Shown here: piece by piece, positions 14,535 through 64,000 of the stretch
Layout: each line of letters begins with the position of its first letter
Position numbering within the stretch: the first letter of the stretch is position 1
Assembly (NCBI RefSeq): GCF_026210795.1
Contig: NC_089454.1
Coordinates: 2,170,001-2,234,000 of the forward strand
Length of the DNA stretch: 64,000 nucleotides
Reading direction: 5' to 3'
Source of the DNA: Rhizophagus irregularis
Taxonomy: Eukaryota > Glomeromycota > Glomeromycetes > Glomerales > Glomeraceae
The notes under the pieces: model-generated
What the model saw: only the letters and a program-made list of their open reading frames with translations
Told to the model about the DNA's origin: nothing
The model's database searches: none
Position numbers and translations under genes: made by a program

Positions 14535-15740
14535 TCAATCTGTTGTTACGGATGAGTTAATATTTATATCGTGGTCATTACATGGCATATCATTTATATC
14601 ATCATAATTTCGATCAACGGCTGTTATCGGAATATCTTGTGTCGTTATACTCTCATCAGAAGTGTATTGCTGTGGATAAGCGTTGCGAGTATCTCGATGA
14701 TTATCAGTAGTTGAAACATCGTATGCTAATACATCATTCTGAAGTGAATTTGTATTTCTATTATAATCTGGTATCGTCTCTCTTTCAGGGATTTGACGTT
14801 GTGGAAAATTATTGAGATCAGCTCGAGTATCTTCAACTTCATTTTGGTAAGGCAAGCAACTTTTTTGATTATCAATCATTGAAGTCGCTTGTGTTGTCAT
14901 CAAATTATCCTTAATATTCTCATGAGATGTGTTTGTATTTCTATTATTATATACTGGTCTCATTTCTCTCTCAGCTGGTGACACATTATTGAAATCAACT
15001 TGTTGCTGTGGATGAATAGCATTATGAATGTAACCTCCAACTTCATTAGCATTATTTTGATTGTCGTTCATCGGTGTCGCCATTATGTTATTTCCAATAT
15101 TTCTATACAATGAATTTGAATTTCTATTGAAGCTTGGTCTCATTTCACTTTTAGGCGAGATATTGTTGAAATCAATTTGTTGTCGTGGTTGAGTGACACT
15201 GTAAGTATAGTCTACGACGTCATTTTGATAAAATCCATTTCCATTTTCAAAATTGTTTTGATTATCATTCATCGGAATCATTTGTTCTGTACTTCGTTCA
15301 TGAAGCTGGTTCATATTTATATTAGAATCCATCCTCATTTCACTTTTGGGAATGTGATTTTGCATAAGGTAAAAGGGAAGGATTTGTTTCAAGTCTCGCT
15401 CTAGATTTAATATTTGATCCAAAGACAATGATTTTTTTCGTTCAAAGTTATTCATGCCAATATCCATCCCGTATATTTTTTTATTTAATATTTTTATAAT
15501 CAAAGGACGTGAAAATAATTTACATTTTACGTAGTAATTAATTGTAGAGCCATGATAGCAAAATCCATGATCATAATCATGATCATCTAAGACAGAACCT
15601 CGTAAAATAATTTGACAAGTTATATGATAAAAATTATTATCTTCTGGTATATAATGAAAAAATTTACATTCATTCGTTTGAATAGCTTGAGAAATCGATA
15701 CGTTATCAGTAAAATTATTCATCATATTTCTTTGATACAT
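14535..15740 (-). CDS. Uncharacterised Asn-rich protein, paralogue 1 (401 aa)
   Basis: I do not recognise this family. A single exon starts MYQRNMMNNFT and runs 401 codons without interruption. Residues about 20-135 form a conserved, probably globular region (ITCQIILRGSVLDDHDYDHG, INYYVKCKLF, LKQILPFYL) shared with the copies at 31144 and 42306. The rest is low-complexity, rich in Asn, Gln and Asp, with repeated RxxYNRNTNS-like and PQQQVDFNN-like units, and is probably disordered. There is no signal peptide, membrane segment or catalytic motif. The tails of the three copies differ by in-frame insertions and deletions, while the head is conserved and all frames stay open, so coding function is likely. 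It is the first gene of duplicated unit 1. Confidence 0.72.
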   Translation of the reverse strand: MYQRNMMNNFTDNVSISQAIQTNECKFFHYIPEDNNFYHITCQIILRGSVLDDHDYDHGFCYHGSTINYYVKCKLFSRPLIIKILNKKIYGMDIGMNNFERKKSLSLDQILNLERDLKQILPFYLMQNHIPKSEMRMDSNINMNQLHERSTEQMIPMNDNQNNFENGNGFYQNDVVDYTYSVTQPRQQIDFNNISPKSEMRPSFNRNSNSLYRNIGNNIMATPMNDNQNNANEVGGYIHNAIHPQQQVDFNNVSPAEREMRPVYNNRNTNTSHENIKDNLMTTQATSMIDNQKSCLPYQNEVEDTRADLNNFPQRQIPERETIPDYNRNTNSLQNDVLAYDVSTTDNHRDTRNAYPQQYTSDESITTQDIPITAVDRNYDDINDMPCNDHDININSSVTTD

Positions 15741-16203
15741 TGATGGAATTCCTGAATAAAATAGATAACCGTTAAAATATTAAGTTATTTGTCCTAGAAT
15801 CAATCTTTATTTATAAAATAATTTTGAAATGATATACTGTAGGCTCATTTATATAATTTATATATTAAATTTTATCACTATCTCAAAACCTTTTAGGGCA
15901 AACCAATAAAATACAAACAATATAAAAAAAAAGGTTTTTAACTGGACTGAACAAAATGTCCACCTGATTATGTTGTGTATCGCTCTTTTCCGCATCTAAG
16001 ATTTTTGGTGTATCGCAGTTGATTGACATTTTTCCCATTTTTTTCCAGTTATAGTAACCGTCTCCTTTTTCCGAGAATTGAAGATGCACCAATAATAGAG
16101 CTTATTCGATCAACTCAAATTTGGAAGAAATTTTATTAAAAATAATGGAAATAAAGTATTATAACTGAAGGAATAGAACTAGAACAAAAAAGGAATGACT
16201 AAA

Positions 16204-22168: not shown

Positions 22169-24229
22169 TTACATTATGATTTGAAATACTTCATAATCTT
22201 CTATCGAGAAATAATCTTCAGTATCTCTTATCTTTTTTTCATAACTACATTGTTTACATTCATTATAATTATACTCTTTTGTATTATCGTCAGACACACT
22301 TATATAAAGATCCTCACCAAACGAAGGACCACAATAATTTTGATTAACTAATGCTTCATCCATATTTTTTACACGACTAAAGATTGGATCCTTAAAATTA
22401 TTCTTACTTTTAAAAGAAAATATAAAACTATCTTTAGTCTTATTAATAAACCCTGGAGATTTCCATACTAAAGGATTATATCCACCAATAATTTCTTCTG
22501 TTCCTTTTAATTTAATGAATGTAATAGTACAAGTTTTATTATCGCATAATGCGTGAAACTTTTTTGGAGTGAATCCATCTCTACTTCCTCTCAATAATAA
22601 TTCAAATTTATATGGTAAATATAATTCTTTGGTATACGCAAATTTAATATTAACATCGATTTTATCAAACCATAATGAAATTATAGAAATAATATTTAAA
22701 TTAACAATTTTTGAATCAATAATTCCATCAATATTCCTATGTCTGGGAAACAAAATATTATCATTTGGTTCATTATCAGGATCCAGATAAGATTTTAATA
22801 AATCTTCATAAAGTTGGCATCTTAAAAGCTTTTTGTAAGGTCGAACTTTTTGCAAGAAATCTTTAGATGAAAGACTAAAGAATCTAATTAAAGGTAAACA
22901 ATGTTGCAAAGTATCTTTCATTATTCGGAAATCATCTTCTGACCAAATAGTAGGTTCTGAAATAAGTGTTGGATTCTTTCCAAGTCCCCATTTTAATACA
23001 TATTCCCAAACTTCAATTTCTTTCATTTGTAAATCATCTCTCTCAATCAGTGAAATTAAAGATTTTTCAGAAAGTGAAGTAAAATCAAACGATCTAAATA
23101 TTTTTTCAGGCGATTTTGCCATCAAATCTATACAAAATTTTTGGAAATCTAACAAATTATTGGATTGAAAGCATATCTGGTATATATGTTCAAAATGTTG
23201 TTGCATCCATTCTGCCTCATTTTCAATTAAATATCTTTGTAAATAATCAGATATTTCTTTTTGAAGAAGAAGTTCATCGACGGCAACCACTAGCTTTAAA
23301 ATATTTGAGGCATCTTGCTCATTTAATGAAATAGTACCACCATAAATGTATCTATTATAATAAATGATAAAACATTAAGAATTTATTAAATTTGTTTGAT
23401 TTTAAAACGTTTGACGATGAATACCTTAAAATAATTTGAAAAACTTCAGTTGTAATGTTAGGTTTTACAAAATAAAATTTTTCATCCTCTCTTTTCATGT
23501 ATTGGTTATTTGACAAAGCAGAACGAAAATACTCTGATCGTGTTCCAATTATTTGAGAATGTAGTTTATACTCACGGCCAGTTACTTCATCTCCAACTCT
23601 TACAATCATATCATAACGCTCTCCTGTTTCAAGTAGTTTAATAAAATCATTGGGAACAATGACTAGAAACAATATTAACAGAATGTTAGGAAATTAATTA
23701 TTCTGAAAAGAATAATTAAGGACAAATCTATAATTCATTATCTTATTCAACAAAGCAACAAAGTAGACAGATACAGAAAAAGAAATCATGAGAAATATAC
23801 TTTACCTTCCTTTTTTACCTTAATCTCTATTGGTGTTTCATATCGGTTAATAAAACTATCATCAACTATTTGTCCAAATTTTAATGGTTCTATCGAATTA
23901 TGTTTATATACTCCAATTAAATCCATCTTGAAATTATCTAGTCCATTTAATTTTATTTTTGCCTCTTCTACCAAATCAGAAACATCTTCACCACTAAACG
24001 CTATTTTTACAGGTTCCTCATTAAATTTCACCCAAATAATTTTCTTATATTTTCCTTCTTGTTCCAAGAAAGGAACGGGTTGTATTAAATCATTATCGTT
24101 ATATCTTTCATTTGTACCTTGTTCATTTTGTAATGGTAAACAGGGTGGTTCTTCATTAACGATTAGATGTGAGTTACATGGGAAAGAAGAATACGAGACC
24201 CTTTTAGCTTTAAAATAAATCATAAACAT
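22169..24229 (-). CDS. BTB-BACK-TLDc protein with N-terminal ubiquitin-like header
   Basis: Three exons on the minus strand: 24229-23806, 23662-23425 and 23351-22169, with introns of 143 and 73 nt, phases 1 and 2. They splice to an uninterrupted 614-residue protein. Residues about 60-140 (KKIIWVKFNEEPVKIAF ... ETPIEIKVKKE) resemble the ubiquitin-like header of Crinkler-type proteins. Then comes a BTB domain (about 150-235: YDMIVRVGDE, HSQIIGTRSEYFRSAL), a BACK domain (about 245-390: FCIDLMAKSPEKIF, EVWEYVLKWG), and a TLDc domain (about 430-610: LLLRGSRDGFTPKKFH, GGYNPLVWKS, DSFIFSF, FSIEDYEVFQI). BTB-BACK proteins usually act as dimeric or Cullin3-linked adaptors, and TLDc domains are tied to oxidative-stress protection and V-ATPase binding; the substrate is unknown. 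The ATG at 24229 is the first in the open frame. Relics at 41.8 and 51.0 kb also carry the header. Confidence 0.82.
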
Positions 24230-31143: not shown

Positions 31144-32286
31144 TCAATTTGTTACGTCATGGTTATCATTGTATGACACGCTATTGTCATCATAAATTTG
31201 ATTATCATTTGTGACCGAAATAGCTTGTGTTGTCATTCTTTCAGCAGGAGTGTAGAGATCAACTTGTTGCTGTGGATAAGCGCTGCGGGTATCTCGATGA
31301 TCAAAATTATTATCAGTAATTGAAACATCATATGCTAATACATCATTCTGAAGTGAATTTGTATTTCTATTATAATCTGGCATCGTCTCTCTTTCAGGGA
31401 TTTGACGTTGTGGAAAATTGTTGGGATCAGCTTGTTGAGTATCTTCAACTCTATTTTGGTGGGATCCTTGATTATTATTCTCGATATTTTCATTGGACGA
31501 ATTTGTATTTCTGTAATTATTGTATACCGGTCTCATAGGTGGTGATATATTATTGAAGTCAACTTGTTGCTGTGGATGAATATCATTATGAATGTAACCT
31601 TCGTTAACATTATTTTGGTTGTCGGTCGTCATTACGTTATTTCCAATACTTCTGTGAAACGAACTTGAATTTCTATTAAAACTTGAGACATTGTTGGAAT
31701 CAATTTGTTGCTGCTGTGGTTGAGTGACATTATAAGTATAATCTACGACATCATTTTGATAAAATCCATGATTTCCGTTATCAAAATTGTTTTGATTCGA
31801 AATCATTTGTTCTGTATTCCGTCTTTGAATTGGATTCATATTTATATTAGGATCAATTCTCATTTCACTTTTGGGAATGTGATTTTGCGTGAGGTAAAAT
31901 GGAAGAATCTGTTTCAAGTCTTGTTCTAGAATTAATTTTTGATCCAAAGACAATTCTTTTTTTCGTTCAAAGTTATTCATGTCAATATCTATCCCGTATA
32001 TTTCTTTATTCAATATTTTTATGATCAAAGGATGTGAAAATAATTTACATTTAACATAATAATTTATTGTAGAGCCATGATAAAAAAATCCATGATCGTA
32101 ATCATGGTCATCCAAGATAGAACCACGTAAAATAATTTGACAAGTTACATGATAAAAATTACCATCGTCCAGATGAAAGAATTTACATTCATTCATTTGT
32201 ATAACTTGAGAAATCGATAAGTTGCTTTGCTGAATCGTTGTTGTCGGTTGCAAAGCAGTAAAATTACTCATGTTTCTTTGATACAT
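31144..32286 (-). CDS. Uncharacterised Asn-rich protein, paralogue 2 (380 aa)
   Basis: A single uninterrupted exon of 380 codons starts MYQRNMSNFT. The conserved head (about residues 28-142) includes NFYHVTCQIILRG, DHDYDHGFFYHG, INYYVKCKLFSHPLIIKIL and LKQILPFYLTQNHIP. It is almost identical to the copy at 42306 and a little further from the copy at 14535. The tail is Asn/Gln-rich with PQQQVDFNNISP, RPVYNNYRNTNSSNEN and RQIPERET units. I see no motif of known function. The gene opens unit 2; its 3' flank and upstream flank are also duplicated in unit 3. Confidence 0.72.
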   Translation of the reverse strand: MYQRNMSNFTALQPTTTIQQSNLSISQVIQMNECKFFHLDDGNFYHVTCQIILRGSILDDHDYDHGFFYHGSTINYYVKCKLFSHPLIIKILNKEIYGIDIDMNNFERKKELSLDQKLILEQDLKQILPFYLTQNHIPKSEMRIDPNINMNPIQRRNTEQMISNQNNFDNGNHGFYQNDVVDYTYNVTQPQQQQIDSNNVSSFNRNSSSFHRSIGNNVMTTDNQNNVNEGYIHNDIHPQQQVDFNNISPPMRPVYNNYRNTNSSNENIENNNQGSHQNRVEDTQQADPNNFPQRQIPERETMPDYNRNTNSLQNDVLAYDVSITDNNFDHRDTRSAYPQQQVDLYTPAERMTTQAISVTNDNQIYDDNSVSYNDNHDVTN

Positions 32287-34588
32287 TGATGGAGTTATAA
32301 GATTGAAGGATTATAAATGTAGGATACTACTGTACAAAATTTAATTATAAATAGGGACTTTACAAACTCACGTGATTTATAATAGTGAAAATCACCTATT
32401 TCATTTTTGGATACTATCGACGTTTTATTAGACGGATCAACGGATCGTCGGATCGTAATTCGTTCATTTTGTTGGTCACAAAAAAAACCTATGCTATTAC
32501 AGATTAGATAATTTGATACAGGTTGGCGGAAATATTCTGAAACTATTTATTTTTTTTTATGTATTATAATAAATTGTAATAAGGTTGTAATAAGGTCTTT
32601 CATATAACAAAATATTTTTTGTATTATTTGTATTTGAAATATAATTAAGCTCTTTACTTTTTAAGCTAAATTCTAGCAAATTCCTTATAAAATACGTCTG
32701 TTCACAGTAATTATTGGACAAGATAATTAAGTTTATAATTTTGTAACTTTATTTTATTTACTGCAAAATAATATACAAAGAGTGATACGAATATTTTTTC
32801 TCCCTCCGAATAATCCCTTTTCAAAGCAATAATTTCCTCCCATACTCTATAAAAAATTTTCTCCGATAATTAATCATATTTTTAGACTTTATTCCAAAAA
32901 ATTCGGACATGCTTATCAATTTTCTAAAAATTTTTACAGAGATAGAATTCTAACAAAAGTTTCACACCAAAATCGATTAACTATGTAAATAGAAACTATC
33001 TTTCTTTAAATACTCGAAAATTTCGTTAAAGCAATCAGCAAGAATATTATTGATATTTTTAACTGAGAAAAATTCTTTTCCGTGAAATATTTTGTTTCAC
33101 TCTGCTGATTAGGTCTTAGATAAAGTTATGAATGAGCATACATAATTAAAAAAGAAAAAAGAAACGATTATTATTTATATTAACTTCGCCAAAGTTAATT
33201 CTCATGCTGCGTACATGTATAATCGGATATATTGATATTCGATTCCAAATTCTGAATACCAGTTATTTTTCGGTCACAGAACCCTATAAAAACTTTTATC
33301 CGTTATTTCTAAAATCAAATAATTCTCCGTGATATAAAGTTACTAATTCCGGAAATATAAGTCTTTTACGGAAAAAAGATGGAATATAAAAAACGGATTA
33401 ATTTTTTTTTACAGGGGACCAATAGGAATTAATGCTACTAATACTAATTTCATTGTTTGGACACAAACCAGGATTATCTTTTAGAATAAATAAGAATCAA
33501 AATATTAACCGCCGAATACCGAATAAAAAATATTCGAATAAATCCAGATACAAACTTTATAACTATTTAATAATGCATACTATAATAGAAAAGCTATGGA
33601 GTAATGTGTTATTTGGCAATAGAGAAAAAATTTAAAGATATATAAATAGGTTAATTTTAAAAAATAACATTTAAACAAAAAAGGAATATAATAAATTTAA
33701 CGAATAGTATATTTAGTAAATGGATGCAGTGTTCGGAAAATGAATTGAAATGATAAAGAGTTCAAACGCAAGTGATTGTTTAAATGATTAGGCTATTTTC
33801 TAAGTGGTGCTAAAAGTTTCGGTTTGTAAAAAACCAATTAGAAAACCGGCAATTAACAATTTAATTTGACAACTAATATTTTTTAAAAAACTTTAATATT
33901 CCATATTAATACAGTTTTATTTACTTATTTTGTTATTTTAAATAAAATAAATATAATATTCATTAATCCATTAAATGATGACATCCTGAATCGATAATTA
34001 ATTTTCTTGCATTACCGAATTAAATGTTTATTTTGGTTTTAATATAACGAATAACCACACACATCTCCTTCGGAATAAATTTGGAATAGCTAATCAAAAT
34101 ATTGGCTCATTTTAGTGTAATAAATGAAAAAAAAATAATGAACGCGAGAGTAAAGAAAATAAAGCTGTTCTTTTATATAATAAATTATTATTCTTTATAA
34201 TAAACTAGGGAAACGGTAACCGTTACAAAGTTCGGAGTTTATTAAGTTTATTACGTTGGAAATGATACAATAATATGAAAGAAGGGCAAACAAAGAAAAA
34301 AAGTAAGCCGATATTTAATTTACATTATTTTGATTCACTAATTTATTTCGCATTTGTTGTAAATTTGTACAAAAATAATTTGTATTGTTTCATATTTGTT
34401 ACAAAATTTTACAAAAATAATAAAAATTCTAAAAACTTTTACATCAAAAATTTCCAAATGTAAAAATGGAAAAAAGAATATTTATTGATCGACCAATACA
34501 TGGATTAATGACAGATCGGAATATTTCCATCATTTGAATGAACCAATTATATATCGACTCAAAGGTCAAGCGGGCGGATAACGGTACA
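32287..34588. other. Intergenic part of unit 2
   Basis: It shares order and sequence with 43449-44530 of unit 3, for example AATAAGAA-CAA--ATTA-CCGC near 33488/44091 and TGTTATT(T/A)GGCAA-TAG near 33606/44199. A CCCTATAAAA-ended MITE sits at 33282. ORFs at 33432 and 34275 have no support. Confidence 0.5.
33282..33416 (+). mobile_element. CCCTATAAAA-ended MITE, copy C
   Basis: It begins CCCTATAAAAACTTTTATCC and ends TTTTTTTTTACAGGG, with the family landmarks TCCGTGATATAAAG, TTCCGGAAATAT and AAAAGATGGAATAT in order. It is absent at the collinear place in unit 3, so it inserted after that duplication or was lost there. Confidence 0.78.
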
Positions 34589-34597
34589 TTTTGTACC

Positions 34598-34812
34598 GCA
34601 AATATATCGTTTTTGATTAAGGAGGTGATGCTTTTTGATTATAGAAGTTAGTTGTACAAACTGTTGTATCGTTTTTGATTATTGAAAAAATAAATGTATC
34701 ATTTTTGATTATTGAAAAAAAATTCTGTCGTTTTTGATTATTGAAAAAAAAATTCTATCGTTTTTGATTATTGAAAAAAAATGTATCATTTTTGATTATT
34801 CGATAGTATCAC
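34598..34812 (+). repeat. Left terminal inverted repeat of the MULE
   Basis: It starts GCAAATATATCGTTTTTGAT and ends GATAGTATCAC. It contains about five direct units of roughly 26-33 bp, each with TTTTTGATTATTGAAAAA, plus two TTTTTGATTA copies near the outer end. Such subterminal arrays usually bind transposase. Confidence 0.9.
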
Positions 34813-35083
34813 GTTTTATTTATTTAATTTATACTAAACAAGTTAATGTATCATTGTATAACATTTAACGCGTTCACATAATACTTTTCTTCACACGACA
34901 AATGGTTTAATTCTTTTTCTTTTCCAAAAATTTTGATTTCTCTTTTGATATTTTTTTCTTTATTATATAATAGTTTTTATAATATATTTTGCGTTTTATA
35001 ACCTTGTTTATATTTTTTACGTGATAATTATTTGTAATAATTTTCTTTCTATAAATTTGTGTAATGTTACTATATATTATAAT

Positions 35084-38000
35084 ATGGAAACTTACGAAAA
35101 TCAAATCAAATACAACGATGATGGCTCAGTAAATGTACCATTTGGTCGTGCTGCGGAATGGTATATATCAAATGCAAATCTTTTAAAAAATCATCGCTTA
35201 AAAAATCAAAGTAGACAAGTTACTCCTAAACTTGTTAAAGCTGGAATCTTAACGGTAGAACGTGTACAAGGGGCAATAGATTACTTAGCATGGAAAACTA
35301 AAACTGGAACAGTAAAATCAACAAATCGTATTGATGATATTTTAGTTTTAACCAGTTTAGGAAGAGATTTGGTTTCTCAAATTGAATTAGGATTAGCCAA
35401 AAACCAACAATGTTGGTATTGGGTTATGTATTGTTCAGGTGATGGAGGCAACTGTCAAAGATTATGTGGTAGTGTTGGAAAATGTAATGAAAATTGCGAA
35501 AATTATAATTTACGAAATAATTTGAAAAATGGAAATGATATGCACCATTGTAGTGTCAGAGTTATTTCTGAATGTCAGTTATCTTGGCTATCATTAGAAA
35601 ATCCATTGCGAATTACCATTCAAGGAACTCATCGTACATTTCACAATAATAATATTCCTAAAATTTCAAGAATAAATTTAACTTATTCTGTCAGAGATTC
35701 AATAGCATTAAGCAGAAGAGCAGACCACAGGACAGCCAAAGGGATAAAAGCGAAATTATTAACATCACTTAATGGTGCATCAGAAGATGTAATTAACAAT
35801 GCATTAGCAAGCCAACGTATAATATGTAATAATGACAAACTTCGGCAATTTGTTGCCAGAGATGATAAGAAATTAAAGGATGATACTGGTCCTTGGACTC
35901 AGCTTGATAGTTTAGTAAATAATATATTAAAATCTCAAGGTTTTATATTATATTATCAAATAGCAGACATTAATCAACCAGCTGATTCACCTGACCGATA
36001 TTATCAACTTACAATTTCTGATGAGTTTTGGTTAAAAAATGCTCGTAATTACGGTAAAATCTGTATCGGAATAGATGGTAAATATGATTTAAATTTGGAC
36101 CGTGCACCGGTATTATCAATTGTCACTGAGAATAGTGCTGGTTGCGGATTGCCTGTTGCATTTGGTAAGTAAAATTTGACATATATTAAATTATTTAGTA
36201 TATAATTTATTGTAATTTATTAAATTGTAAATAAAATATATATATTAGCGCTATTTAATAAGGAAAATCATCATACTATAAAATTGGCTATTGACGCTAT
36301 TAAAAAAAATATCCCATGTGATAACGAGTTCTGTGAACACAAGTGGTACTATGAAAATCTTTTATCTGGAAACGGATTTCAACGAGTTCGTGAATGTCAA
36401 AACAATAATTGGAAGCCATATATCTTAATTGATAAGCATAGACCATCTAAACTTGCTATCCAAAATGCTTCACATAAACCAATTTTATGTTGGTTTCATA
36501 TTATGAAAACTTTTAGTGAAAATTTAAATAAATGGCAGATACCTGCAAAATTCAGGTAAGTTATATATTATATTAATTTTTTTTTATTAAAATTGATAAC
36601 TAAATTAATTATTTTATTGTTTAGATATCCAATAGCATTAGCGTTTAAAATTGTAGGTCGTAGTCGAACTGAAGAAACTGCCATTGAAATGGCTAAGAAA
36701 TATATTGAATTTATTAACACTCTTCCGTTGGAAAAAACCAAGAAAGATAAATTAATAGATGATTTATCTAAAAATTGGATGTGCACAGAGTGGCGATTAA
36801 GTTTTATTGATGCTGGTCGTATTTCCAAAAATATTACAAACAGATTTCCATGGACTACAAACAATTTTACAGAACGGATCAATAGGACAATTGAAGCAGT
36901 ATATAGTGGTAAACAAACACCATTGACATTTATTGAACGAATGTATGGAATAAATTTTCAAAGTGAAACTATTGTAAGTCATGAAGATTTAAATAAGTTT
37001 GAATCTGGTTTAGTTACTTTATTCAATACTCAAACGATTGAACAGGTAAGAATTTTTTCGTTATCATTTTTAATTAATATTATTAAATTAATTTATTTTA
37101 AATTATTTATAGCAAACTAAAGATGATATATGTTGTGATAAACTTCGAAGATTAAATCAAGGAAGATTAGATTTTCTTCTTAATATGGTTAAGATATCAT
37201 CAGACCAAAATACTTTTCTTGTCAAAAAAAAATCTGATGATTTATTTGTATCTTTTTATGATGATAAGCCTTTACGTCTAGATGAGGAAATTGTACGAAA
37301 ATTAAATGATATGGTCAATTTTCTTATGAAATCTTTATTATCCGAAAATATAATATTAGAACAAGGATTTCATATATGTAATGTTATTACTGGTGAATGT
37401 ACGTGCTGGGAATACATATGGAATAGTTCATTACGTGATAAATGTAGGCACTGTCATGCAGCCACTTTGCTTATAGAAACACAACAAAAAGGACATCTAG
37501 AAGTTGTAAACGAAGCAAAGAAAAATCTTGTTCATTATTTTCGTAATAAGGAACGAGTAGTTCCCGCGTCTATAAAAAATAATGTAATATATCAAGGTGA
37601 CATGGAAGATTCTTATCAAGAAATTATTAGATTATATAATATGCAAGGTAAGATGTTTGAAATAATTTTTTAAAAAATTATTATTGTTATTTATTATATT
37701 AATCTTACTTTTGCTCACTAGGTAATAAAATATTTTATCCACTTAAACGGTCATCTCAGGAGATTAAAGATCCATTTCGGCCAGCAGAATTAAGTGAAAG
37801 AACAAAATCAAATTTAGGCGCACCTCCTAAATTATCTGCTAAACCTCGATCGTCCCATAGAATAAATTTATTACCAAACCAATCACAATCTGGTAATACG
37901 TTTTCTATACAACAAAGGAAAACAAAACAAATTCGAAATCTTAAACGAAAACGAGAAGATAATTTATCTTCAATTAGTACTGGTAAAGATATAGATTTAA

Positions 38001-38886
38001 CGTAATAATATTAATATCTGTATTATTAATTTCTTTACCTATATTTATTTAATAGATAGAAGTACATCTTCATTTGCATCATCATCATCGTTTATAATGC
38101 CAAGCCCACCCCGCAATGTATTTCAACATCTTCCAGAACTGCCATCTAATGATGATTTAAACTTGGATTTAGAATTGGATTTAGTACCTAATTCTCACAA
38201 TTTATGCCCCTATTGTGATAATATCCTACCAGATACTTTACCAGAAAAAATAAAAGACCAGTTACAAAATCTACAAAACAAGCCAATCACAGAAGAAGAA
38301 CGTTGGTCTTTTTGTATAATGCATCATGGTGAATTGAATATTGTTCCACATGGATTATCAAAAGGATATCCTGAATATATCGATTTTAATGTACTTCCAT
38401 CACGCATAATCAAATTTGAAAAAGATCTCATTGAAATTATTAACGGAAATATTTCAAGTTACTATTGGGATATTGCATCTTCAATATATAAAGAAGTCGG
38501 ATATAATAAAGCCAAGGCGCCAATGATGCTCATGAATCGATTTGAAGTTTTTCAGGTTGGTAATTATCTGTTTGAATATAAATTTTGTTTATATTTTATT
38601 AATTAGTTTTACTAATTTACAGCCAGGTTATTATGGATTTAATGGGTTATATACTATTGTTAATACTTTAATAGATTTGTTTGTTAACTCTAATAATCTT
38701 ACAAAAGACCAAACGTACCCATTAGACCCTATGGATTTTATTTACGAAGTTCTAGTACCAGAAGTAACATTACGTCTGATTCAGGAGGACCGTAATAATA
38801 GTATAACACTTGAAGATGCGAAAGAAATTTTAAATGATAGTATTGAATTTGGAGTTTATATGCATAGCAATGAAATAGATGATTGA
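35084..38886 (+). CDS. MULE transposase fused to SWIM finger and RTC4-like domain
   Basis: Seven exons: 35084-36164, 36249-36555, 36625-37045, 37113-37647, 37722-37982, 38056-38555 and 38623-38886. All have GT..AG introns (66-84 nt) with matching phases, giving 1122 residues. A Cys/His cluster (about 110-156) resembles a zinc ribbon. The DDE core shows D331 in CIGIDGKYD, D422 in YILIDKHRPS, the CWFH motif at 441-444, and a candidate E546 in TTNNFTERINR. A SWIM finger CxCx12CxH follows at 699-716. A basic Ser/Pro linker leads to an RTC4-like domain (about 915-1115): LCPYCDNILPD, FCIMHHGE, HGLSKGYPEYIDFNVLPSRI and PGYYGFNG. MULE transposases cut and paste DNA between their terminal repeats; yeast Rtc4 is linked genetically to telomere capping. 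The exon 5-6 junction (37982/38056) keeps frame, so I read one fusion protein; without it, a stop at 38006 would give two proteins. The start at 35084 was chosen over 35021. Confidence 0.87.
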
Positions 38887-39140
38887 TTAATACTATTGTC
38901 TTTTAGTTGTAATAAAGACAAATTTTGAGAAAATAAAGATTAAATTTATGACATATAAATGTTGGCAATTCTTTGTTTTAAATGGCTTAATAAAAATATA
39001 CAAGAAGCAGTAAATAGTAAGGAAACAAAAATAACGATTAATAAGATTAATAATTTGAAATTATTTAGTGGGTTATTAAAAATAAAGTCTCCGATGTGCA
39101 AACGCAAGATACAGTATGTCGAATCTATGCATGTGACCAT

Positions 39141-39355
39141 GTGATACTATCGAATAATCAAAAATGATACATTTTTTTTCAATAATCAAAAACGATAGAA
39201 TTTTTTTTTCAATAATCAAAAACGACAGAATTTTTTTTCAATAATCAAAAATGATACATTTATTTTTTCAATAATCAAAAACGATACAACAGTTTGTACA
39301 ACTAACTTCTATAATCAAAAAGCATCACCTCCTTAATCAAAAACGATATATTTGC
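39141..39355 (-). repeat. Right terminal inverted repeat of the MULE
   Basis: An exact reverse complement of 34598-34812 by reading, including the TTTTTGATTA unit array. It begins GTGATACTATCGAATAATC and ends ATCGTTTTTG in complement form at the outer edge, next to the TTTTGTACC duplication. Confidence 0.9.
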
Positions 39356-39468
39356 TTTTGTACCACCTCATCCAAAACATACTGTATATAGACGCTCCGG
39401 ACTAATAATAATAGTTAATTGAAAATATGACTTTTTGAATAATATTATTTATACTTTTATTTAAAATA

Positions 39469-42305: not shown

Positions 42306-43448
42306 TTAAAAATTTCGATATTTGTCGGAGATCAATTTGCTGGATGAATTAATATTTACGTCGTGGTTATCATTGTATGATACGTCATTATCATCATAAT
42401 TTTGATTAACATCAGTGATCGGAATAGCTTGTGCTGTTATTCCCTCGACAGGAGTGTAGAAATGATATGTATCTCGATGGTCAAAATTAATATCAGTCAT
42501 TGGAACATCATGTGTTAATGTATCATTCTGAAGTGAATTTGTATTTTTATCACAATATGGTATCGTCTCTCTTTCAGGAATTTGACGTTGTGGAAAATTA
42601 TTTTGAACATCTTTAGTATCTTCAACTTTATTTTGGTGGGATACTTGATTATCAATCATTGAAGTTACTTGTGTTGTCATTAAATTATTCTCAATATTTT
42701 CGTTAGACGATTTTGTATTTCTATAATTATTGTATACAGGTCTCATCTGAGGTGGTGATATGTCATTGAAGTCAACTTGTTGCTGTGGATGAATGACATT
42801 GTGAATGTAACCTCCGTTAACATTATTTTGGTTGTCGGTCGTTATTACGTTATTTCCAATACTTCTGTGAAATGAACTTGAATTTCTATTAAAACTTGAG
42901 ACATTGTTGGAATCAATTTGTTGCTGTGGTTGAGTGACATTATAAGTATAATCTACGACATCATTCATCGAAACCATTTGTTCTGTATTCTGTCCCCGAA
43001 TTGGATTCATATTTATATTAGAATCAATCCTCATTTCACTTTGGGGAATGTGATTTTGCGTGAGGTAAAATGGAAGAATCTGTTTCAAATCTTGTTCTAG
43101 ATTTAATTTTTGATCCAAAGATAATGATTTTTTTCGTTCAAAGTTATTCATGTCGATGTCTATCCCGTATATTTCTTTATTCAATATTTTTATGATCAAA
43201 GGATATGAAAATAATTTACATTTAACATAATAATTTATTGTAGACCCATGATAAAAAAATCCATGATCGTAATCATGGTCATCCAAGATAGAACCACGTA
43301 AAATAATTTGACAAGTTACATGATAAAAATTACCATCGTCCAGATGAAAGAATTTGTATTCATTCATTTGTATAACTTGAGAAATCGATAAATTACTTTG
43401 CTGAATCATTGTTGAAGCAGTAAAATTATTCATGATTCTTTGATACAT
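42306..43448 (-). CDS. Uncharacterised Asn-rich protein, paralogue 3 (380 aa)
   Basis: A single open exon of 380 codons starts MYQRIMNNFTAST. The head is nearly identical to that of the 31144 copy (NFYHVTCQIILRGSIL, YYVKCKLFSYPLIIKIL, LKQILPFYLTQNHIP). The tail is Asn/Gln-rich, with different in-frame gaps: it lacks a stretch after NTEQMVSMNDV and ends NINSSSKLISDKYRNF. I cannot assign a function. The reading frame has survived in a unit whose partner BTB-TLDc gene is dead, suggesting separate selection. Confidence 0.72.
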   Translation of the reverse strand: MYQRIMNNFTASTMIQQSNLSISQVIQMNEYKFFHLDDGNFYHVTCQIILRGSILDDHDYDHGFFYHGSTINYYVKCKLFSYPLIIKILNKEIYGIDIDMNNFERKKSLSLDQKLNLEQDLKQILPFYLTQNHIPQSEMRIDSNINMNPIRGQNTEQMVSMNDVVDYTYNVTQPQQQIDSNNVSSFNRNSSSFHRSIGNNVITTDNQNNVNGGYIHNVIHPQQQVDFNDISPPQMRPVYNNYRNTKSSNENIENNLMTTQVTSMIDNQVSHQNKVEDTKDVQNNFPQRQIPERETIPYCDKNTNSLQNDTLTHDVPMTDINFDHRDTYHFYTPVEGITAQAIPITDVNQNYDDNDVSYNDNHDVNINSSSKLISDKYRNF

Positions 43449-45624
43449 TGATGGAGTTAAAAGATTGAATGGTTATAAATTAAATTTTTAATCCTTGGAT
43501 CAGCACATAAAATCACGTGATTTCGTATTAGTAAGAATACACTAATTCATTTTTGGATACTATCAACATTTAATTTACATCGTGGAAAGTTCTATTATGT
43601 AAAACTTTCTTTTTATTCGTTCATTTAGTTGGACAAAACGCTTATGCCAAGATTCTATAGTATTGCAGATTAGATAATTTGATCATTGTATGCAGATTGG
43701 ACGGACCTAATAACTATATAATATAGATTAAAATAAAATAATGTTTTTAATAAATTATTTTGCATAAATTTTTCTAAAATTGTAAATTGTATCACCACTT
43801 TTTGCTGTGATAGTCCCCTTAAATATTATACAGTCAACTTTCCCCAGCAAATCCCTTATAAAATAGTAACAGTTTTGTGTAATTTTTTTTCTAATAATAT
43901 ACAAATAATAATTTCCTTTTCACATTAAAATCTATTACTAATAGACAATCAGCAAGAAGTTGACAAGGAATTATTGATATTTTTAACAGAGAAAAAAAAA
44001 AGTTTTTATCGAGATAAATTTATTAGCATTAATAGCAATAACAAGTATTCAGAATTCAGAATCAGATATCCATATAGATATCTTTTAAAATAAATAAGAA
44101 CCAAGACATTATCCGCAGAATATCCAAATTAATCTCTTCAAATGATTAGATGTTAATCAGATATCCGGAATAATATATACATATAAAATTAGCATGTGTT
44201 ATTAGGCAAATAGGGAAAAAATTTTAAAGATTATATAAATAGAATTATTAACGAATGGTACAGTATATTTAGTACAGTGTTTGGAAAATGATTTGAAATT
44301 GATAAAGGGTTCAAGCGTATAATAACGTCATGAATTGCGTGGATAAAATTTCTCGCATTACCGAAATACAACCTGATGATTGGCATAACGGGAATGATGC
44401 ATTATTTAAACATCACATAATATCAAAACAATAACGAAATTGAAGTTCAAAAATATAAACCAATCAAAAATTGGCTTGTTTTAGTGTAATAAATGAAAAA
44501 AAAGCTCAAAAAGAAAAAAAATAATAATAATAATTAACGCGAGAAGAAAATTTTTTTGAAGTAATTACTATAACACCAAGGTACTTATTTTCACATGGAT
44601 TGGTTAAAAATTTGTCCGTCAGTGGCAAAATTTATAGCCGATCACACAATTGACCACGTATTATTATCGTACGGATCTAGCCATAACAGAAAATTTATTT
44701 TTAATATGGATGAAAGACTATTAAGGAAATACTTTTGATAATTAATAAAATACGGTATTCTTATTTTTAATATAACAAGCTTTTTCCGATAAAATCATGT
44801 TACGCCATTATGGTCATATTTCCTCCTACTGTTCTATTTACTGATTACCCTTTATTTAGCCTTTATTTATTTGCTACACAAATTTAATCTGATCATCGAT
44901 AAATGGTCATTTTTCTAGTTTTTATCGAAAAGGCTGTCATCGAATAATATCCGAAATAATTGGAATACAATTCAGTCACGTGATCTTTTTCTGGAAAATT
45001 TTTTATAGGGCGCTATCAATGATTAATTCTATTTTCACATCATAATTTGCCTTTTTTGAACCCGGCCTCCCGGATTTTTATTTTAAGAAAAAAATTTTTT
45101 AACCAATAAAATAAAATTTAAATTCATTATAATAATCCACAGCGTAATCTTCATATGTTACAAATAATTTCCTATGTCAAACAAAATTCCGGGATTTTTA
45201 AAAACGGTACACTAGCACAAAATTTTTAAGCTTTCTAAATACCAATTCTTTTATTGAATATTGAACGAGAAAAATTGATGTTTCTTGAAAAAATCATTTT
45301 AAACAATATATGCAGTACATTATTGTTTCATCTAATTGGAAAATTTTAATAATAAAATTTAAATTTCTCTTTATATTATAAATTGTTATGGTGTTTGTTA
45401 TAGTAAGCGGTATGATTAAATTGAAAAAATGAATATTATTTAAACATTATTTTATTATGATAATTTGGCCAAGTCATCAAAAACTGTCACTTAATCACCA
45501 GCGCGGTAAGATGGGAAGTGGCAAGGGACGAAAATAAAGGGAAGAGAAAGGAAAGACAAGAAGGAAAAGAAAAATTATGGACGTATTAATCCTTTTCTTT
45601 TAGTTGATTGATTTTATAGAAATG
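43449..45624. other. Intergenic part of unit 3
   Basis: It is collinear with unit 2 as far as about 45090. A lone TTTTTTATAGGGCG end near 44999-45012 suggests a truncated CCCTATAAAA-family element. No gene is seen. Confidence 0.45.
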
Positions 45625-53321: not shown

Positions 53322-53942
53322 AATATCCTGAAAAAAAAAAATCTTTAAAATAATTTGATTTTTATTTTCATTGCTTTTTATTAAAATGTTAATCGCTACC
53401 ATTTTTGGCGAAATGTCCATTTGGCGAATAAAAAATGTGGCACACTTTTTGATTGCCATAATGCAAATGGTCTATCATAAAAACTATGATTTACCTTATT
53501 TTGAAATTTTTACAATAGTTCCTATAGTCAATCATTCAATCATTTAATGAAGTTATTTATTCAACACGAAAGTTATTATAATTGGCAAACAAAATGTGCC
53601 ACACTATATTTGTGAAAATTGTAAAATTTGGATATAAAATTTATTTTCAAACATTTATTTCGGTTATGCGCTCGGTTAAAGAATTCCATCAGAATTTACG
53701 TAAGCCAAATATACTGTATATAAATAAGATGTTCCTCCATACATTAACACTATCAAAATTTTGACTTTAACCCACGTACCTCATCATTCAAATTTCTTGT
53801 AAAAGATCGATTTTTTCACAATAATATATATATATTATTGAGCTTAAAATTTATAACATTCGTAATCTATTTAAGATTCACTACTAAATTTTGCAATTTT
53901 TTTTTAATTTGGAATAATTTTAAATTTTTTATCTTAATAAAT
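53322..53942. other. Upstream region of the Sel1-kinase gene
   Basis: No gene is supported. A TATATATATATTATT run at 53823-53838 lies about 110 bases before the chosen start codon and may serve as an AT-rich core promoter element. Confidence 0.35.
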
Positions 53943-56900
53943 ATGTTGAGGAACAAAATTGATGAATTTGTTAAACCACATTATGTAAAGAAGGCTGACC
54001 TTGCAAAATTATATTATAATGGAAAAGTAACAGAAGAGAACTTAGATCATCATGCAATGCATGATCTTGCAAAATTATTTTATCGCGGAAAAGAAACAGA
54101 AAAGAATTTAGAAAATGCATTTTATTGGAATCAAAAAGCAGCAGAAAATGGTAATATATGTGCAATATGTACTTTAGCTGTATGGTATAAAAATGGAGAA
54201 AGAACAGAAAAGAATTTAGAAAAAGCCTTTTATTGGAATCAAAAAGCAGCAGAAAATGGAGATACTGATGCAATGTTTTACTTAGCCCATAGCTATTATA
54301 GCGAAGGAGGAACAGAAAAGAATTTAGAAAAAGCCTTTTATTGGTACCAAAAAGCAGCAGAAAATGGTAATTGTTATGCAATGTCTAATTTGGCATTTTG
54401 TTATTACAGTGGAGAAGGAATGGAGAAGAACTTAGAAAAAGCCTTTTATTGGTATCAAAAAGCAGCAGAAAATGGTAATGGTTATGCAATGTCTAATTTG
54501 GCAGTTTGTTATTACAATGGAGAAGGAATAGAGAAGAACTTAGAAAAAGCCTTTTATTGGTATCAAAAAGCAGTTGAAAATGGTAATGATGATGCAATAC
54601 TTAATTTGGCTGTATGTTATTACAGTGGAAAAGGAACAGAAAAGAATTTAGAAAAAGCCTTTTATTGGTTAAAAAAAGCAGCAGAAGATAGTAATAACCA
54701 TCATGTTACTATGCATGATTTAGCTGAATGTTATTATGATGGAGAAGGAATAGAAAAGAATTTAGAAAAAGCCTTTTATTGGCATCAAAAAGCAGCTGAA
54801 AATGGTAATAAATGTGCAATGAATCATTTGGCCAGTTTTTATGAAAATGGAGAAGGAACAGAAAAGAATTTAGAAAAAGCCTTTTATTGGTGTCAAAAAG
54901 CAGTTGAAAATGGTAATGATGATGCAATATTTAATTTGGCTGGATATTATCACTATGGAAAAGGAACAGAAAAGAATTTAAAAAAAGCCTTTTATTGGAA
55001 TCAAAAAGCAGCAGAAAATGGTCATATTAATGCAATGTTTATTTTGGCTATATATTATTATAGTAAAAAAAATTTAAAAAAAGCCTTTTATTGGTATCAA
55101 AAAGGTGCTGAAAATGGTTATGCTAATACAATAAAAATGGCCTTTTATTGGTATCAAAAAGCAGTTGAAAATGGTCACACTAATGCAATAAAAATGACCT
55201 TTTATTGGTATCAAAAAGCAACAAAAAATGGTAATGATAATGCAATAGTATTTAATTTAGCTGTATGTTATAGAAATGATAGAGAAATAGAAAAGAATTT
55301 AGAAAAAGCCTTTTATTGGTGTCAAAAAGCAGCTGGAAACAATAATGACAATGCTAGGAATATTTTAGCTAAGCATTATTATAATGGTGAAGGAACAGAC
55401 AATAACTTAGAAAAAGTCTTTTATTGGCTTCAAAAATCAGCTGAAAATGGTAATGAGCAAGAAAAATATATTCTTTCATTATTGTATTATAATGGTAAAG
55501 GAACAGAGAAGAACTTAGAAAAAGCCTTTTATTGGAATCAAAAAGCAGCAGAAAATGGACACACTAATGCAATGTTTAATTTGGCTATATGTTATTACAA
55601 TGGAAAAGGAACAGAAAAAAATTTAGAAAAAGCCTTTTATTGGTGTCAAAAAGCAGCTGAAAATGGTCACACTAATGCAATAAAAAAGTTTTTTTATTGG
55701 CATCAAAAAGTAGTAGAAAATAGTAATGACCATTATGCTATGTATAATTTAGCTGATTGTTATTATAATGGTAAAGGAATAGAAAAGAACTTTGATGAAG
55801 CTTTTTATTGGTATCAAAAAGCAGCGGAGAATGGTAATAAATGTGCAATGAATCATTTAGCCAGTTGTTATAAAAATGGAAAAGGAACAGAAAAGAATTT
55901 AGAGAAAGCTTTTTATTGGTGTCAAAAAGCAGTTGAACATGGTAATAAATGTGCAATGAATCATTTAGCCAGTTGTTATTACAATGGAGAAGGTACAGAA
56001 AAGAATTTAGGAAAAGCCTTTTATTGGTTAAAAAAAGCAGCAGATAATAGTAATAACCATCATGCTATGCATGATTTAGCTGAATGTTATTATTATGGAG
56101 AAGGAATAGAAAAGAATTTAGAAAAAGCCGTTTATTGGCATCAAAAAGCAGCTGAACATGGTAATAAATGTGCAATGAATCATTTAGCCAGTTGTTGTTA
56201 CAATGGAGAAGGAACAGTAAAGAATTTAGAAAAAGCCTTTTATTGGCATCAAAAAGCAGTTGAAAATGGTAATGATGATGCAATATTTATTTTGGCTGGA
56301 TATTATCACTACGGAAAAGGAACAGAAAAGAATTTAGAGAAAGCTTTCTATTGGTATCAAAAAGCAGTTGAAAATGGTCACATTGATGCAATGAATCGTT
56401 TAGCCAGTTGTTATTACAATGGAGAAGGAACAGAAAAGAATTTAGAAAAAGCATTTTATTGGTATCAAAAAGCAGTTGAAAATGGTAATGATGATGCAAT
56501 ATTTAATTTGGCTGAATATTATCACTATGGAAAAGTAACAGAAAAGAATTTAGATAAAGCTTTCTATTGGTATCAAAAAGCAGTTGAAAATGATCACATT
56601 GGTGCAATGAATCGTTTAGCCAGTTGTTATTACAATGGAGAAGGAACAGAAAAAAATTTAGAAAAAGCCTTTTATTGGTGCCAAAAAGTAGCTGAAAATA
56701 GTAATAACCATCATGTTATGCATGATTTAGCTGAAAGTTATTACAGAGGAGAAGGAATAGAAAAGAACTTTGATAAAGCCTTTCATTGGCATCAAAAAGC
56801 AGCTGAAAATGGTAATAAATGTTCAATGGATCATTTAGCAAATTGTTATGAAAATGGAGAAGGAACAGAAAAGAATTTAGATAAAGCATTTTATTGGTGT

Positions 56901-58960
56901 CAAAAAGCAGTTGAAAATGGTAATGATGATGCAATATTTAATTTGGCTGGATATTATCACTATGGAAAAGGAACAGAAAAGAATTTAAAAAAAGCCTTTT
57001 ATTGGAATCAAAAAGCAGCAGAAGGTGAACACACTAATGCAATGTTTAATTTGAAAATATATTATAATGATGGAAAAGGAACAGAAAGTAATTTTAAAAA
57101 AGCCTTTTATTGGTGTCAAAAAGCAGTTGAAAATGGTCACATTGATGCAATGAATAGTTTGGCTTTATGTTATCACAATGGAAAAGGAATAGAAAAGAAT
57201 TTAGAAAAAGCCTTTTATTGGTATAAAAAAGCAGCTGAAAATGGTAATATATGTTCAATGAATCATTTAGCTGAATGGTATGAAAATGGAGAAGGAATAG
57301 AAAAAAATTTACAAAAAACCCTTTATTGGTACCAAAAAGCAATTGAAACCGCGCAAAATAATTCTAAAACTGAAAATAATACTTGTATTCATTATGATTT
57401 AGGTAGAAAGACAAAACTAATTAAGTCAATGGAAAGATTTATAATTGAATCAGAAGAAGTGAATTATAATGAATGTAATGAATGCCATATGAAAAGAAGA
57501 CCTTCAAAAAAGAATCAACAAATTTGTATAATTTGTTATCAAGCAAAATTATTATATAAACAAAGTGGAAATGAAACTATAGACGAATTCATCAAATATA
57601 CACAAATTAATTTTATTCAAGAATCTAGCAGAATGAAATTTATTTCCTATGATCGATTTAAAAACATAGAATTTATTAAAGAAGGAGGATTTAGTAAAAT
57701 TTATAAAGCTACATGGATTGATGGTCCACATAGTTGGAATGAAGAAAAAGAAGATTTTGAATATAAAGAACCTAATATAATAGTTGCTTTAAAACAGCTT
57801 AATAACTCTGAAAATATTTTACTTGAAGAGTTAAAAGAGGTAAGCAGATTATTTTATTTAATTTTAACAATAATTTATTTTTTTAATATAATAAGGAAAG
57901 CTTACATTAATTTTATAATTTCAGCTTTTAATGATTTATATTGCTGATATAAATAGTAATTTCATTAATTCTTCACTTTATTTAAATGAATATTATGGAA
58001 TTACTCAAAATCCCGATACTAAAGATTTTATTATTATTATGAAATATTATAAATTTGATTTGAAGAATTATATAACAAAAAGTAAAGACTTTTATAATAT
58101 TGAATGGAATAAAAAATTAAAAATACTCAGAAATATTGCCGTAGGACTTAAACATCTTCATAATAAAGGTATTATTCATCGAGATTTGCATAGTGGAAAT
58201 ATTCTTTGTGAAAATGATGATGATGTAGTAATAAGTGATTTAGGAATTAGTAAATCAGCAATGGGATCCACAAATGATAATGAGAGTGTATATGGTATTA
58301 TTCCATATATGGCTCCAGAGATTTTGCAAAGAAAAAAATATACTATATGTTCGGATATTTACAGTTTTGGTATGATCATGTGGGAACTTATGACAGGTAA
58401 ATTACCATTTGAGGATCAAACTATAGATGTTGGACTTATGAGTAAAATATGTTATGATGGTCTTCTCCCCCCAATAACAGCTAATGCACCTAAGGGTTAT
58501 ATTGAACTGATGCAAGAATGCTGGAATTCTGATCCAATTAAAAGACCAGAAGCTGCTAATATATTAAATGAAAGGTTACGTGATATGTTAAGTGAAGAAG
58601 TTAGTAATCCGACAGAAATTATAAAACCGACAGATATTGCACCTATAGATAATCCAAAAAGTAAACAATTAAGCAATGAAATATTTACATCAAGTTCAAA
58701 AGAACTAGGTAATTAAACCTGATTTACTAATTAAAATCGTTTTTTTATACTATTAAACTTAATACTTTTTGTTAAATTATTTAGAGCCACTTTATCCAAA
58801 AAAAAGAATGATTGAAAATAATCTAATTGAAGATACTAATTGTGGTATGTTTCGTTAAATTATCTTCGTATAACAAATTAAAAGTCAATATTAATGAACT
58901 TATTACTTTTTAGGATATTGTTATAAAACGAAAGCAAATGAATTTGACATTAAAATGTAA
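53943..58960 (+). CDS. Sel1-repeat protein kinase, 1595 aa
   Basis: Four exons, 53943-57839, 57925-58708, 58785-58844 and 58914-58960, with GT..AG introns of 85, 76 and 69 nt, join in frame. Residues about 33-1136 are roughly 30 Sel1-like repeats of 36 residues, consensus A-LA-CYYNGEGTEKNLEKAFYW-QKAAENG, forming an alpha-solenoid for protein binding. A CxxC...CxxC cluster follows (about 1178-1199). The kinase spans about 1239-1550: Gly loop KEGGFSKIYKA, VALKQL lysine, HRDLHSGNIL catalytic loop, DLG in place of DFG, YMAPEIL and SDIYSFGMIMWEL. All key catalytic residues are present, so an active Ser/Thr-type kinase is likely; the target is unknown. The tail ends NCGYCYKTKANEFDIKM. If intron 3 is retained the protein ends at 58716. 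The ATG at 53943 is preferred over 53838 because the extra 35 residues are hydrophobic A/T-driven sequence. Confidence 0.86.
54040..57348 (+). repeat. 108-bp coding tandem repeat (Sel1 array)
   Basis: About 30 units of 108 bp share runs such as GAAAAGAATTTAGAAAAAGC and CCTTTTATTGG. Near 55080-55230 three shortened units keep only the second helix (KMAFYWYQKAVENG). Minus-strand ORFs across this block are shadows of the repeat. Confidence 0.9.
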
Positions 58961-62850: not shown

Positions 62851-64000
62851 TTAGTTATCATTTATAATCTGAAATACTTCATATTCTTCTACAGAAAAAT
62901 CATCTTCCATCTTTCTGATCTGTTTTTCATAAGAATTTTCCTGACAGTAACTTTTTTTATTTCTAAAAGAAGCTACACCTTCATGACCTCCATATATTGT
63001 AAGGTCTTTATCACCAATAAATGATGACCCGTAATGGTAACAATAACATATGGCATAATATTCATCCTTTACTCGACTAATAATATGATCTTTAATACTT
63101 TCTTTATTCATAAAAGAGAAAATAAAGCTATCTTTGGTAGTACCATAATCGCGGAAAATTCCATAATCATTTTTCCATTCAATCGGGTTATATTCTCCAA
63201 GAATTTCATTGGTATCTTTTACTTTAAATATTGTTACAGTATGAGATTGATTATCACATATTTCATGAAATCGTTTAGCTGTAAATCCATCACGAGATCC
63301 AAGAAGAATTAATTTGAATTCATATGAATTTTTTAATTCATCTGTAATTTCTAATCTATTAATCCATTTTGAAATTAATTCAGCATGTTGAGTTGTAATA
63401 ATTATTGAATCTAAGTTTTTAGAATTTTTGTCCAAAAAGTATTTAATCGTATCTTCATATAACTCTTCAGGAATAATCTTTATGCCTTATTCAAGAATTC
63501 TTTAGAAGTAAATTTAGTAAATTTAATAAAAGTAATAAATTGTTGCAAAGTATTTTTCAAGGATTTAAAATCATCATTTGAATAACATGAAGGGTCCAGG
63601 ATTTTGAGCAATACCCCATTTAAGTATATGTTCCCAAACTTGAACTTCTCCCATTTCATGATTATCATGTTGAATAAGAGAGATTAAAGCTTTTTCTGGA
63701 ATCGAAGTAAAATCACATGAACTGAAACGTTTTTCTGGATGTTTAAATATTAACTCTGTGCAAAACTTTGAAGATCCAAAAAGGAATCATTTTCAATGGT
63801 CATCTGGTATATTAGATTAAAATTTTGTTCTGTCCAGTTTTCATTGTTTTCAATCAAAAATAATTGTAAATGGGAAATTAATTCTTGAAGACTTAATTCA
63901 TTAGCGGCAACCAAGATCTTAACCAAGATCTTAATAATATCTAAAATATCATATTCTATTAAAGAAATTCTTCCTCCATAAATATACCTAAGATATAATA
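62851..64000 (-). pseudogene. BTB-BACK-TLDc gene, frameshifted, cut by window end
   Basis: The minus-strand sequence encodes BACK and TLDc regions, with the BTB exon beyond the window. The TLDc part is open (LILLGSRDGFTAKRFHEICD, ILGEYNPIEWKNDY, DSFIFSF, FSVEEYEVFQI). Upstream, three frame changes are visible: near 63478 after TSKEFLNKA, where about seven bases of the YKKI segment are missing; near 63600 after LKWGIAQNPG; and near 63768 in LDLQ-KFCTEL. A 12-base tandem duplication, AAGATCTTGGTT twice, adds KILV at about 63912-63935. It is a different subfamily from 22169, nearer to common Rhizophagus TLDc proteins. It is probably dead unless assembly errors explain all the shifts. Confidence 0.75.

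Follow-up and report, generated by a model that had tools for sequence, protein, structure and literature searches.

A Mutator-like element of Rhizophagus irregularis encodes a transposase joined in frame to a putatively captured RTC4 domain

Results

A transposase gene that continues into an RTC4 domain

The window analyzed here, a 64,000-nucleotide stretch of the Rhizophagus irregularis genome (C26:2170001-2234000), contains a complete Mutator-like element (MULE) bounded at 34598-39355 (4758 bp), and the transposase gene of this element continues in frame into an RTC4 domain. The reading that we favor as a whole, and consider fairly probable, is that of a recently mobile MULE carrying a captured, host-type RTC4 domain, which would be under selection and serve as an interaction module, with no apparent telomere targeting.

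The spliced product of the gene was predicted to be 1122 aa, encoded by seven plus-strand exons in a single open frame. Exon 1 (35084-36164) carries the N-terminal part of the transposase and the first catalytic D (D331), exon 2 (36249-36555) carries the second D (D422) and CxxH (C441 and H444), and exon 3 (36625-37045) carries the catalytic E (E546); these residues match the D-D-CxxH-E pattern of MULE transposases. Exon 4 (37113-37647) contains a CxC..CxH pattern at residues 698-718, which we take to be a SWIM-like motif; the SWIM profile gave no match in the window protein up to E 1. Exon 5 (37722-37982) encodes a linker, and intron 5 (37983-38055), of phase 1, separates the transposase from the putatively captured segment. 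In this segment, exon 6 (38056-38555) carries a PSP motif (M883 at 38097) and the RTC4 region with its CxxC..CxxH residues (C919, C922, C955, and H958), and exon 7 (38623-38886) encodes the latter half of RTC4, running from PGYYG to the stop codon.

The Pfam RTC4 profile (PF14474) matched residues 999-1116 with E 7.9e-23 and a score of 81.3 bits, the cut-off being 23.7, and the MULE profile (PF10551) reached 27.2 bits (E 5.6e-6) against a cut-off of 27.6. Two further, weaker Pfam matches seen up to E 1 were below their own cut-offs. In an alignment of 32 rows, counted with gaps and including 3 rows that are not transposases, the catalytic D, D, C, H, and E of the window protein were conserved in 24, 30, 21, 21, and 23 rows, respectively. 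The CxxC..CxxH residues were intact in 10 of 11 RTC4 rows, the first C being absent in L025. A search of the sequences of solved structures returned a single match, a glutaredoxin (E 0.55), which was taken as chance.

A previous sequence-only reading of this DNA had proposed the fusion of a Mutator-like transposase to an RTC4-like domain across the exon 5-6 junction (37982/38056). The junction is indeed bordered by GT..AG, is in phase 1 on both sides, and leaves one open frame across the transposase and RTC4; the profile match above the cut-off bears out the name of the domain. The PGYYGFNG block of that reading is also present, with the stretch leading into it revised: the best reading of intron 6 is 38556-38622, which yields FQPGYYGFNG. 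Retention of intron 5 would lead to a stop ending at 38005, rather than at the 38006 of that reading.

The RTC4 exons lie within a mobile element

The gene is flanked by two 215-bp terminal inverted repeats, at 34598-34812 (plus strand, beginning GCAAATATATC) and 39141-39355 (minus strand), which are 100% complementary. Outside these repeats, the 9-bp target site duplication TTTTGTACC occurs in identical copies at 34589-34597 and 39356-39364. Because these repeats and duplications enclose the gene, the RTC4 exons lie within the mobile element. The left repeat includes a tandem array of a 30-bp unit (x4.7; plus strand, 34665-34800), with a matching array at 39153-39289 in the right repeat, and these units are possible transposase-binding sites. 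Neither the inverted ends nor the target duplication was mentioned in the sequence-only reading. Folding of the inverted repeat DNA gave nothing above shuffles, and no tRNA (ARAGORN) or Rfam match at gathering scores was detected in the window.

A genome search with the inverted repeat gave 33 matches, including 10 pairs less than 10 kb apart, and an RTC4 match was found inside all 10 of these paired-end copies. Perfect 9-bp target duplications, each different, were present in eight copies; the other two were without any. Identity to the window copy was 98.3-99.98% in the nine others. The closest, on C31, differs from it by about 1 base (99.98% identity) and occupies another target site. Recent movement therefore follows from these two near-identical copies at different target sites, and by this comparison the element appears to be recently mobile. 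Judged by exon indels and stops, three of the 10 copies (window, C31, and C11) were in frame, and the remaining seven contained frame-breaking indels or stops. The copies at L010 and L011 were longer (5836 and 8239 bp, respectively), with extra DNA inside. A degraded copy of the window family, L026, is spanned by a wider, possible eleventh pair on C26 (1364753 and 1387969).

The GT..AG borders of intron 5 were retained in 10 of 10 paired-end copies. The donor at 37983 was likewise kept in every copy, and an alternative donor at 38002 was lost in L011. The deposited gene models P0001, P0003, and P0034 of R. irregularis and P0002 of R. clarus, all of which are predictions, are joined at this position. 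An accident of assembly or annotation was ruled out by the 10 copies and the second species.

Joined relatives and a second fused family

P0002 of R. clarus is annotated as a full-length fusion of 1123 aa and is 87% identical to the window protein. Identities were 167/192 in RTC4, 295/327, 182/200, and 231/275 in the transposase parts, and 100/123 in the linker, so that RTC4 is conserved about as well as the transposase parts. P0001 (R. irregularis; 50 member sequences) and P0003 are close relatives that are also joined; PF10551 is listed for both, and P0002 is without it. The frame, the profile, the presence of RTC4 in all 10 copies, and the R. clarus protein together support a fusion of a MULE transposase with RTC4.

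A second fusion, P0021, is partial, with 50% identity in RTC4, and was located at L023. The L023 family is about half-identical to the window family and has RTC4 after the transposase. Both ends of L023 carry GCAAATATATC[AG]TTTTTGATT, a 21-bp motif as in the window family. No target duplication was visible at L023, and a frame change is present in its linker. L021 is a fragment of the same family. A transposase tree built from 21 rows placed the three fused ones together with weak support (58/28). For P0005 to P0012, relatives with 42-52% identity, no Pfam domain is listed, and the PGYYG block was absent in six of them that were inspected; these models are perhaps cut short. A DNA search with L023 returned further transposase-like places (e.g. 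C9:4113009, C7:23470, and C32:1583442), with no RTC4 there in the RTC4 genome searches.

RTC4 next to FAR1-type MULEs

RTC4 was found at a minimum of 21 places in the genome: the 10 paired-end copies, L026, L023, L021, L022, and seven others. This count is a lower bound, and further degraded pieces exist (e.g. C3:2090454 and C10:2065267). Five of the seven others (L019, L020, L024, L025, and L027) are situated on the same strand as a FAR1-type MULE, or what is left of one, and downstream of it; the remaining two, L018 and L028, are RTC4 fragments belonging to these families. L019 matched the MULE (E 1.7e-24) and FAR1 (9.9e-11) profiles. For SWIM, L019 scored 17.5 bits against a cut-off of 19.6, and L020 and L024 were above the cut-off. 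The frame of L019 was open from the transposase through RTC4 under several first-intron choices, the three later introns having GTAAGT donors. L019 is enclosed by imperfect 52-bp inverted ends (2727-2778 and 6927-6978; score 45, compared with a maximum of 35 in 60 shuffles), at which no target duplication was seen. These ends are, by eye, unlike those seen in the window family, and a search with the window transposase at E 1e-3 found no match in L019, of which L027 is a copy. Inverted ends above the shuffled control were not found at L020, L024, L025, L027, L021, or L022, and they were detected at one of the four FAR1-type loci tested. The 5′ end of L019 (2711-2796) resembles eleven other places at 74-82%, some being family copies and others perhaps short related elements.

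RTC4 was thus found in three MULE settings: the window family, L023, and the FAR1-type L019. Chance neighborhood of RTC4 and MULEs was rejected for the 11 RTC4 places outside the ten paired-end copies: three of them (L019, L020, and L025) lie within 3 kb downstream of a MULE on the same strand, for which the chance is about 6e-7, or 1e-5 with 407 candidates, in a test counted by eye on places that include L026 and are not all independent. On the other hand, at least 150 MULE-domain places were scored among the 407 candidates, compared with at least 21 RTC4 places. Because RTC4 is rare among MULEs in this genome, it is not required for MULEs generally.

Selection on the fused domain

In comparisons of the window copy with each of the eight copies that differ from it, dN/dS was 0.12-0.36 in RTC4 and 0.16-0.67 in the transposase; the linker had 0-1 silent changes per pair. 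These pairwise values are not independent, because the copies are mutually related, and the counts are small. In RTC4 of the window copy and L013, changes were found at 4 of 113 silent and 2 of 463 changing sites (Fisher p 0.015). Among the FAR1-type families, the L020-L024 pair had 50.5/110 silent and 64.5/433 changing differences in RTC4 (dN/dS 0.23), and dN/dS was 0.22 for L018-L020 and 0.17 for L018-L024. The constraint was weaker in L019-L027 (0.46) and L021-L023 (0.45). These substitution counts support the view that the RTC4 domain is under purifying selection and would be maintained as part of the transposase.

Origin of the RTC4 segment

L022 contains an RTC4 gene, and no transposase was found there in the tests made; we take this locus as the host RTC4 gene. 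A search with its 1885 bp returned L022 itself as one full match and a 77-bp match (77%) on C10, beside a FAR1-type relic. In L022, the CxxC exon is immediately preceded by a phase-1 intron and PGYYG by a phase-0 intron, the latter in common with the window gene. This phase-0 intron was found at seven of eight loci, with the acceptor only at L025. L019 and L023 keep both introns, whereas the window family has only the second. A PSP motif lies 169-200 nt upstream of CxxC at L022, L019, L021, L023, and L025, and 102 nt upstream in L012 and L013 of the window family, in which the intervening intron is gone. The motif was not found at L018, L020, L024, or L027; at L028 a PSP stretch lies near stops, and L026 offered no anchor for this comparison. 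From the shared introns and the upstream PSP motif, it therefore appears that the captured unit was genomic DNA, namely the 3′ portion of a gene of host type.

In the RTC4 tree, which had few outgroups (Amanita) and from which Dipodascopsis was omitted as a long branch, L022 grouped with the FAR1-type L019, L020, and L024 (95/94), apart from the window family and the tentatively placed FAR1-type L025. Uniting the window family with L023 and L021 in a single clade was not rejected (p-AU 0.112). Several captures seem likely because a single transposon RTC4 clade without L022 had a p-AU of 0.0501; by this topology, RTC4 DNA was perhaps captured from the host type more than once.

Insertion sites and telomeres

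The sequence-only reading had suggested that RTC4 could steer target choice or protect ends, and mapping of insertion sites relative to telomeres was performed. With contig ends standing in for telomeres, the insertions, only ten in number, were spread over the contigs, the nearest contig end being 109 kb away (KS p 0.40 against uniform). TTAGGG was absent from the 25-base flanks of the paired-end copies. Neither telomere targeting nor protection of ends by RTC4 is supported. According to the description of this assembly (PMC10234402), 17 of its 32 scaffolds run from telomere to telomere and a further 14 have a telomere at one end; among the matches listed, C2 begins with TTAGGG arrays. Three transposase-like places at which RTC4 was not seen (C7:23470, C14:33040, and C23:17439) are less than 35 kb from the contig start, unlike the ten paired-end RTC4 copies. 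A short TTAGGG array at C1:7983820 lies about 0.9 kb from a MULE-domain place (C1:7982688-7982969), and more arrays are located near 7.995 Mb.

Discussion

We propose that the 3′ portion of an RTC4 gene of host type, together with its introns, would have been taken as DNA into the C-terminus of a MULE transposase and then kept by selection as part of a DDE transposase with a SWIM-like motif. RTC4 may be an interaction module that binds zinc and would bring the transposase into contact with the nuclear partner of host Rtc4. Cutting and joining could thereby be coupled to the break handling or chromatin of the host; such a tether is put forward tentatively. A general interaction module is preferred over telomere targeting because the ten insertions are not near contig ends, and a role of RTC4 at DNA breaks is possible. 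The presence of RTC4 in a distant MULE of the same genome suggests that the piece helps elements. Somewhat speculatively, RTC4 could be a recurrent module of fungal MULE transposases, acquired from the host gene by distinct MULE clades independently because it links the transposase to a host factor of break handling or chromatin, with the RTC4 expansions of other fungi being partly transposon-borne.

MuDR makes two proteins. By analogy, the gene could produce a transposase that terminates within a retained intron 5, alongside a second protein, RTC4, begun near M883, as the open frame of intron 5 to the stop ending at 38005 and the deposited model P0035, which begins at the matching methionine, would allow. 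We give this little credence, since GT..AG of intron 5 is kept in every copy, P0001, P0002, P0003, and P0034 are joined models, and the frames of L019 are joinable through its own introns. The idea that RTC4 is passive cargo, picked up in Pack-MULE fashion and without a role, draws on the known capture of gene fragments by MULEs (PMC6431247, in the part concerned) and on the rarity of RTC4 among MULEs here. It is improbable in view of an RTC4 domain that shares the reading frame of the transposase encoded by the element, occurs in 10 of 10 paired-end copies, in R. clarus, and in a half-identical family, shows the signature of purifying selection, and keeps CxxC..CxxH in 10 of 11 rows.

Yeast Rtc4 is found in the cytosol and nucleus and is genetically linked to telomere maintenance, its function being unclear in the relevant passages of PMC6162548. 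Together with the host-type domain and its conserved CxxC..CxxH, this link would fit an RTC4 that mimics or competes with host Rtc4, damping break signaling or silencing and thereby protecting the element. For this purpose a free copy would serve equally well, yet RTC4 is here part of the transposase, and we consider mimicry unlikely. The same genetic link and the yeast name are what speak for RTC4 steering insertion to telomeres or capping ends, which is highly improbable given ten insertions at least 109 kb from contig ends and flanks free of TTAGGG.

The element resembles SWIM-type MULEs in its long inverted ends, 9-bp duplication, D-D-CxxH-E core, and putative SWIM-like motif, and differs from them in having RTC4 at the C-terminus of the transposase itself. 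Like plant Pack-MULEs, it holds a host-type gene segment within MULE ends. Pack-MULEs, however, are without a transposase of their own and use one supplied in trans (PMC6431247, same part), whereas this element encodes its transposase, with RTC4 in frame and apparently under purifying selection. The profile match, CxxC..CxxH, and the PGYYG block are shared with fungal RTC4 proteins (PF14474; yeast Rtc4), from which the present domain differs in being transposon-borne; Amanita P0032 and Dipodascopsis P0033 are listed with PF14474 alone. The MULEs of R. irregularis described by Dallaire et al. 2021 (PMC8647823) belong to the same species and superfamily. As stated in the sections concerned, MULE-MuDR elements are expressed in spores and MULEs occur near expanded gene families; the relevant text contains no RTC4 fusion, and neither 'telomere' nor 'fusion' is used anywhere in the main text.

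No RTC4 fused to a transposase was found in the main texts of the open-licence literature, in which 'restriction of telomere capping' and 'transpos' co-occur only in rust-genome work. The main text of a fungal co-option screen (PMC10799480) does not contain Mutator, telomere, Glomero, Rhizophagus, or SWIM, and PMC12062965 does not contain MULE, RTC4, telomere, Rhizophagus, or Glomero. MULEs with captured host sequence are known; a fused RTC4 domain that appears to be selected was found in none of the open-licence papers searched. Proteins filed as telomere-capping in fungal genomes can be transposases, and R. clarus P0002 has such a UniRef name. RTC4 is expanded to 45 in Puccinia novopanici, compared with 15 in P. 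sorghi (PMC9370660, in the part consulted), and our guess is that expansions of this type may be partly mobile elements. Transposases that keep RTC4 can be used to test the function of the domain, because mobility can be scored.

Elsewhere in the window, a Sel1-repeat frame (28 Sel1 stretches) is followed by a kinase-domain frame at 53748-58716, and expanded genes of the Sel1/kinase type have been reported near MULEs in R. irregularis (PMC8647823, in the sections concerned). Three minus-strand orphan frames (14535-15779, 31144-32310, and 42306-43472), two of which flank the element, are similar to one another and gave no Pfam match at E 0.001. TLDc-domain frames are located at 22169-23374 and 62851-63486, the first of which also has BACK.
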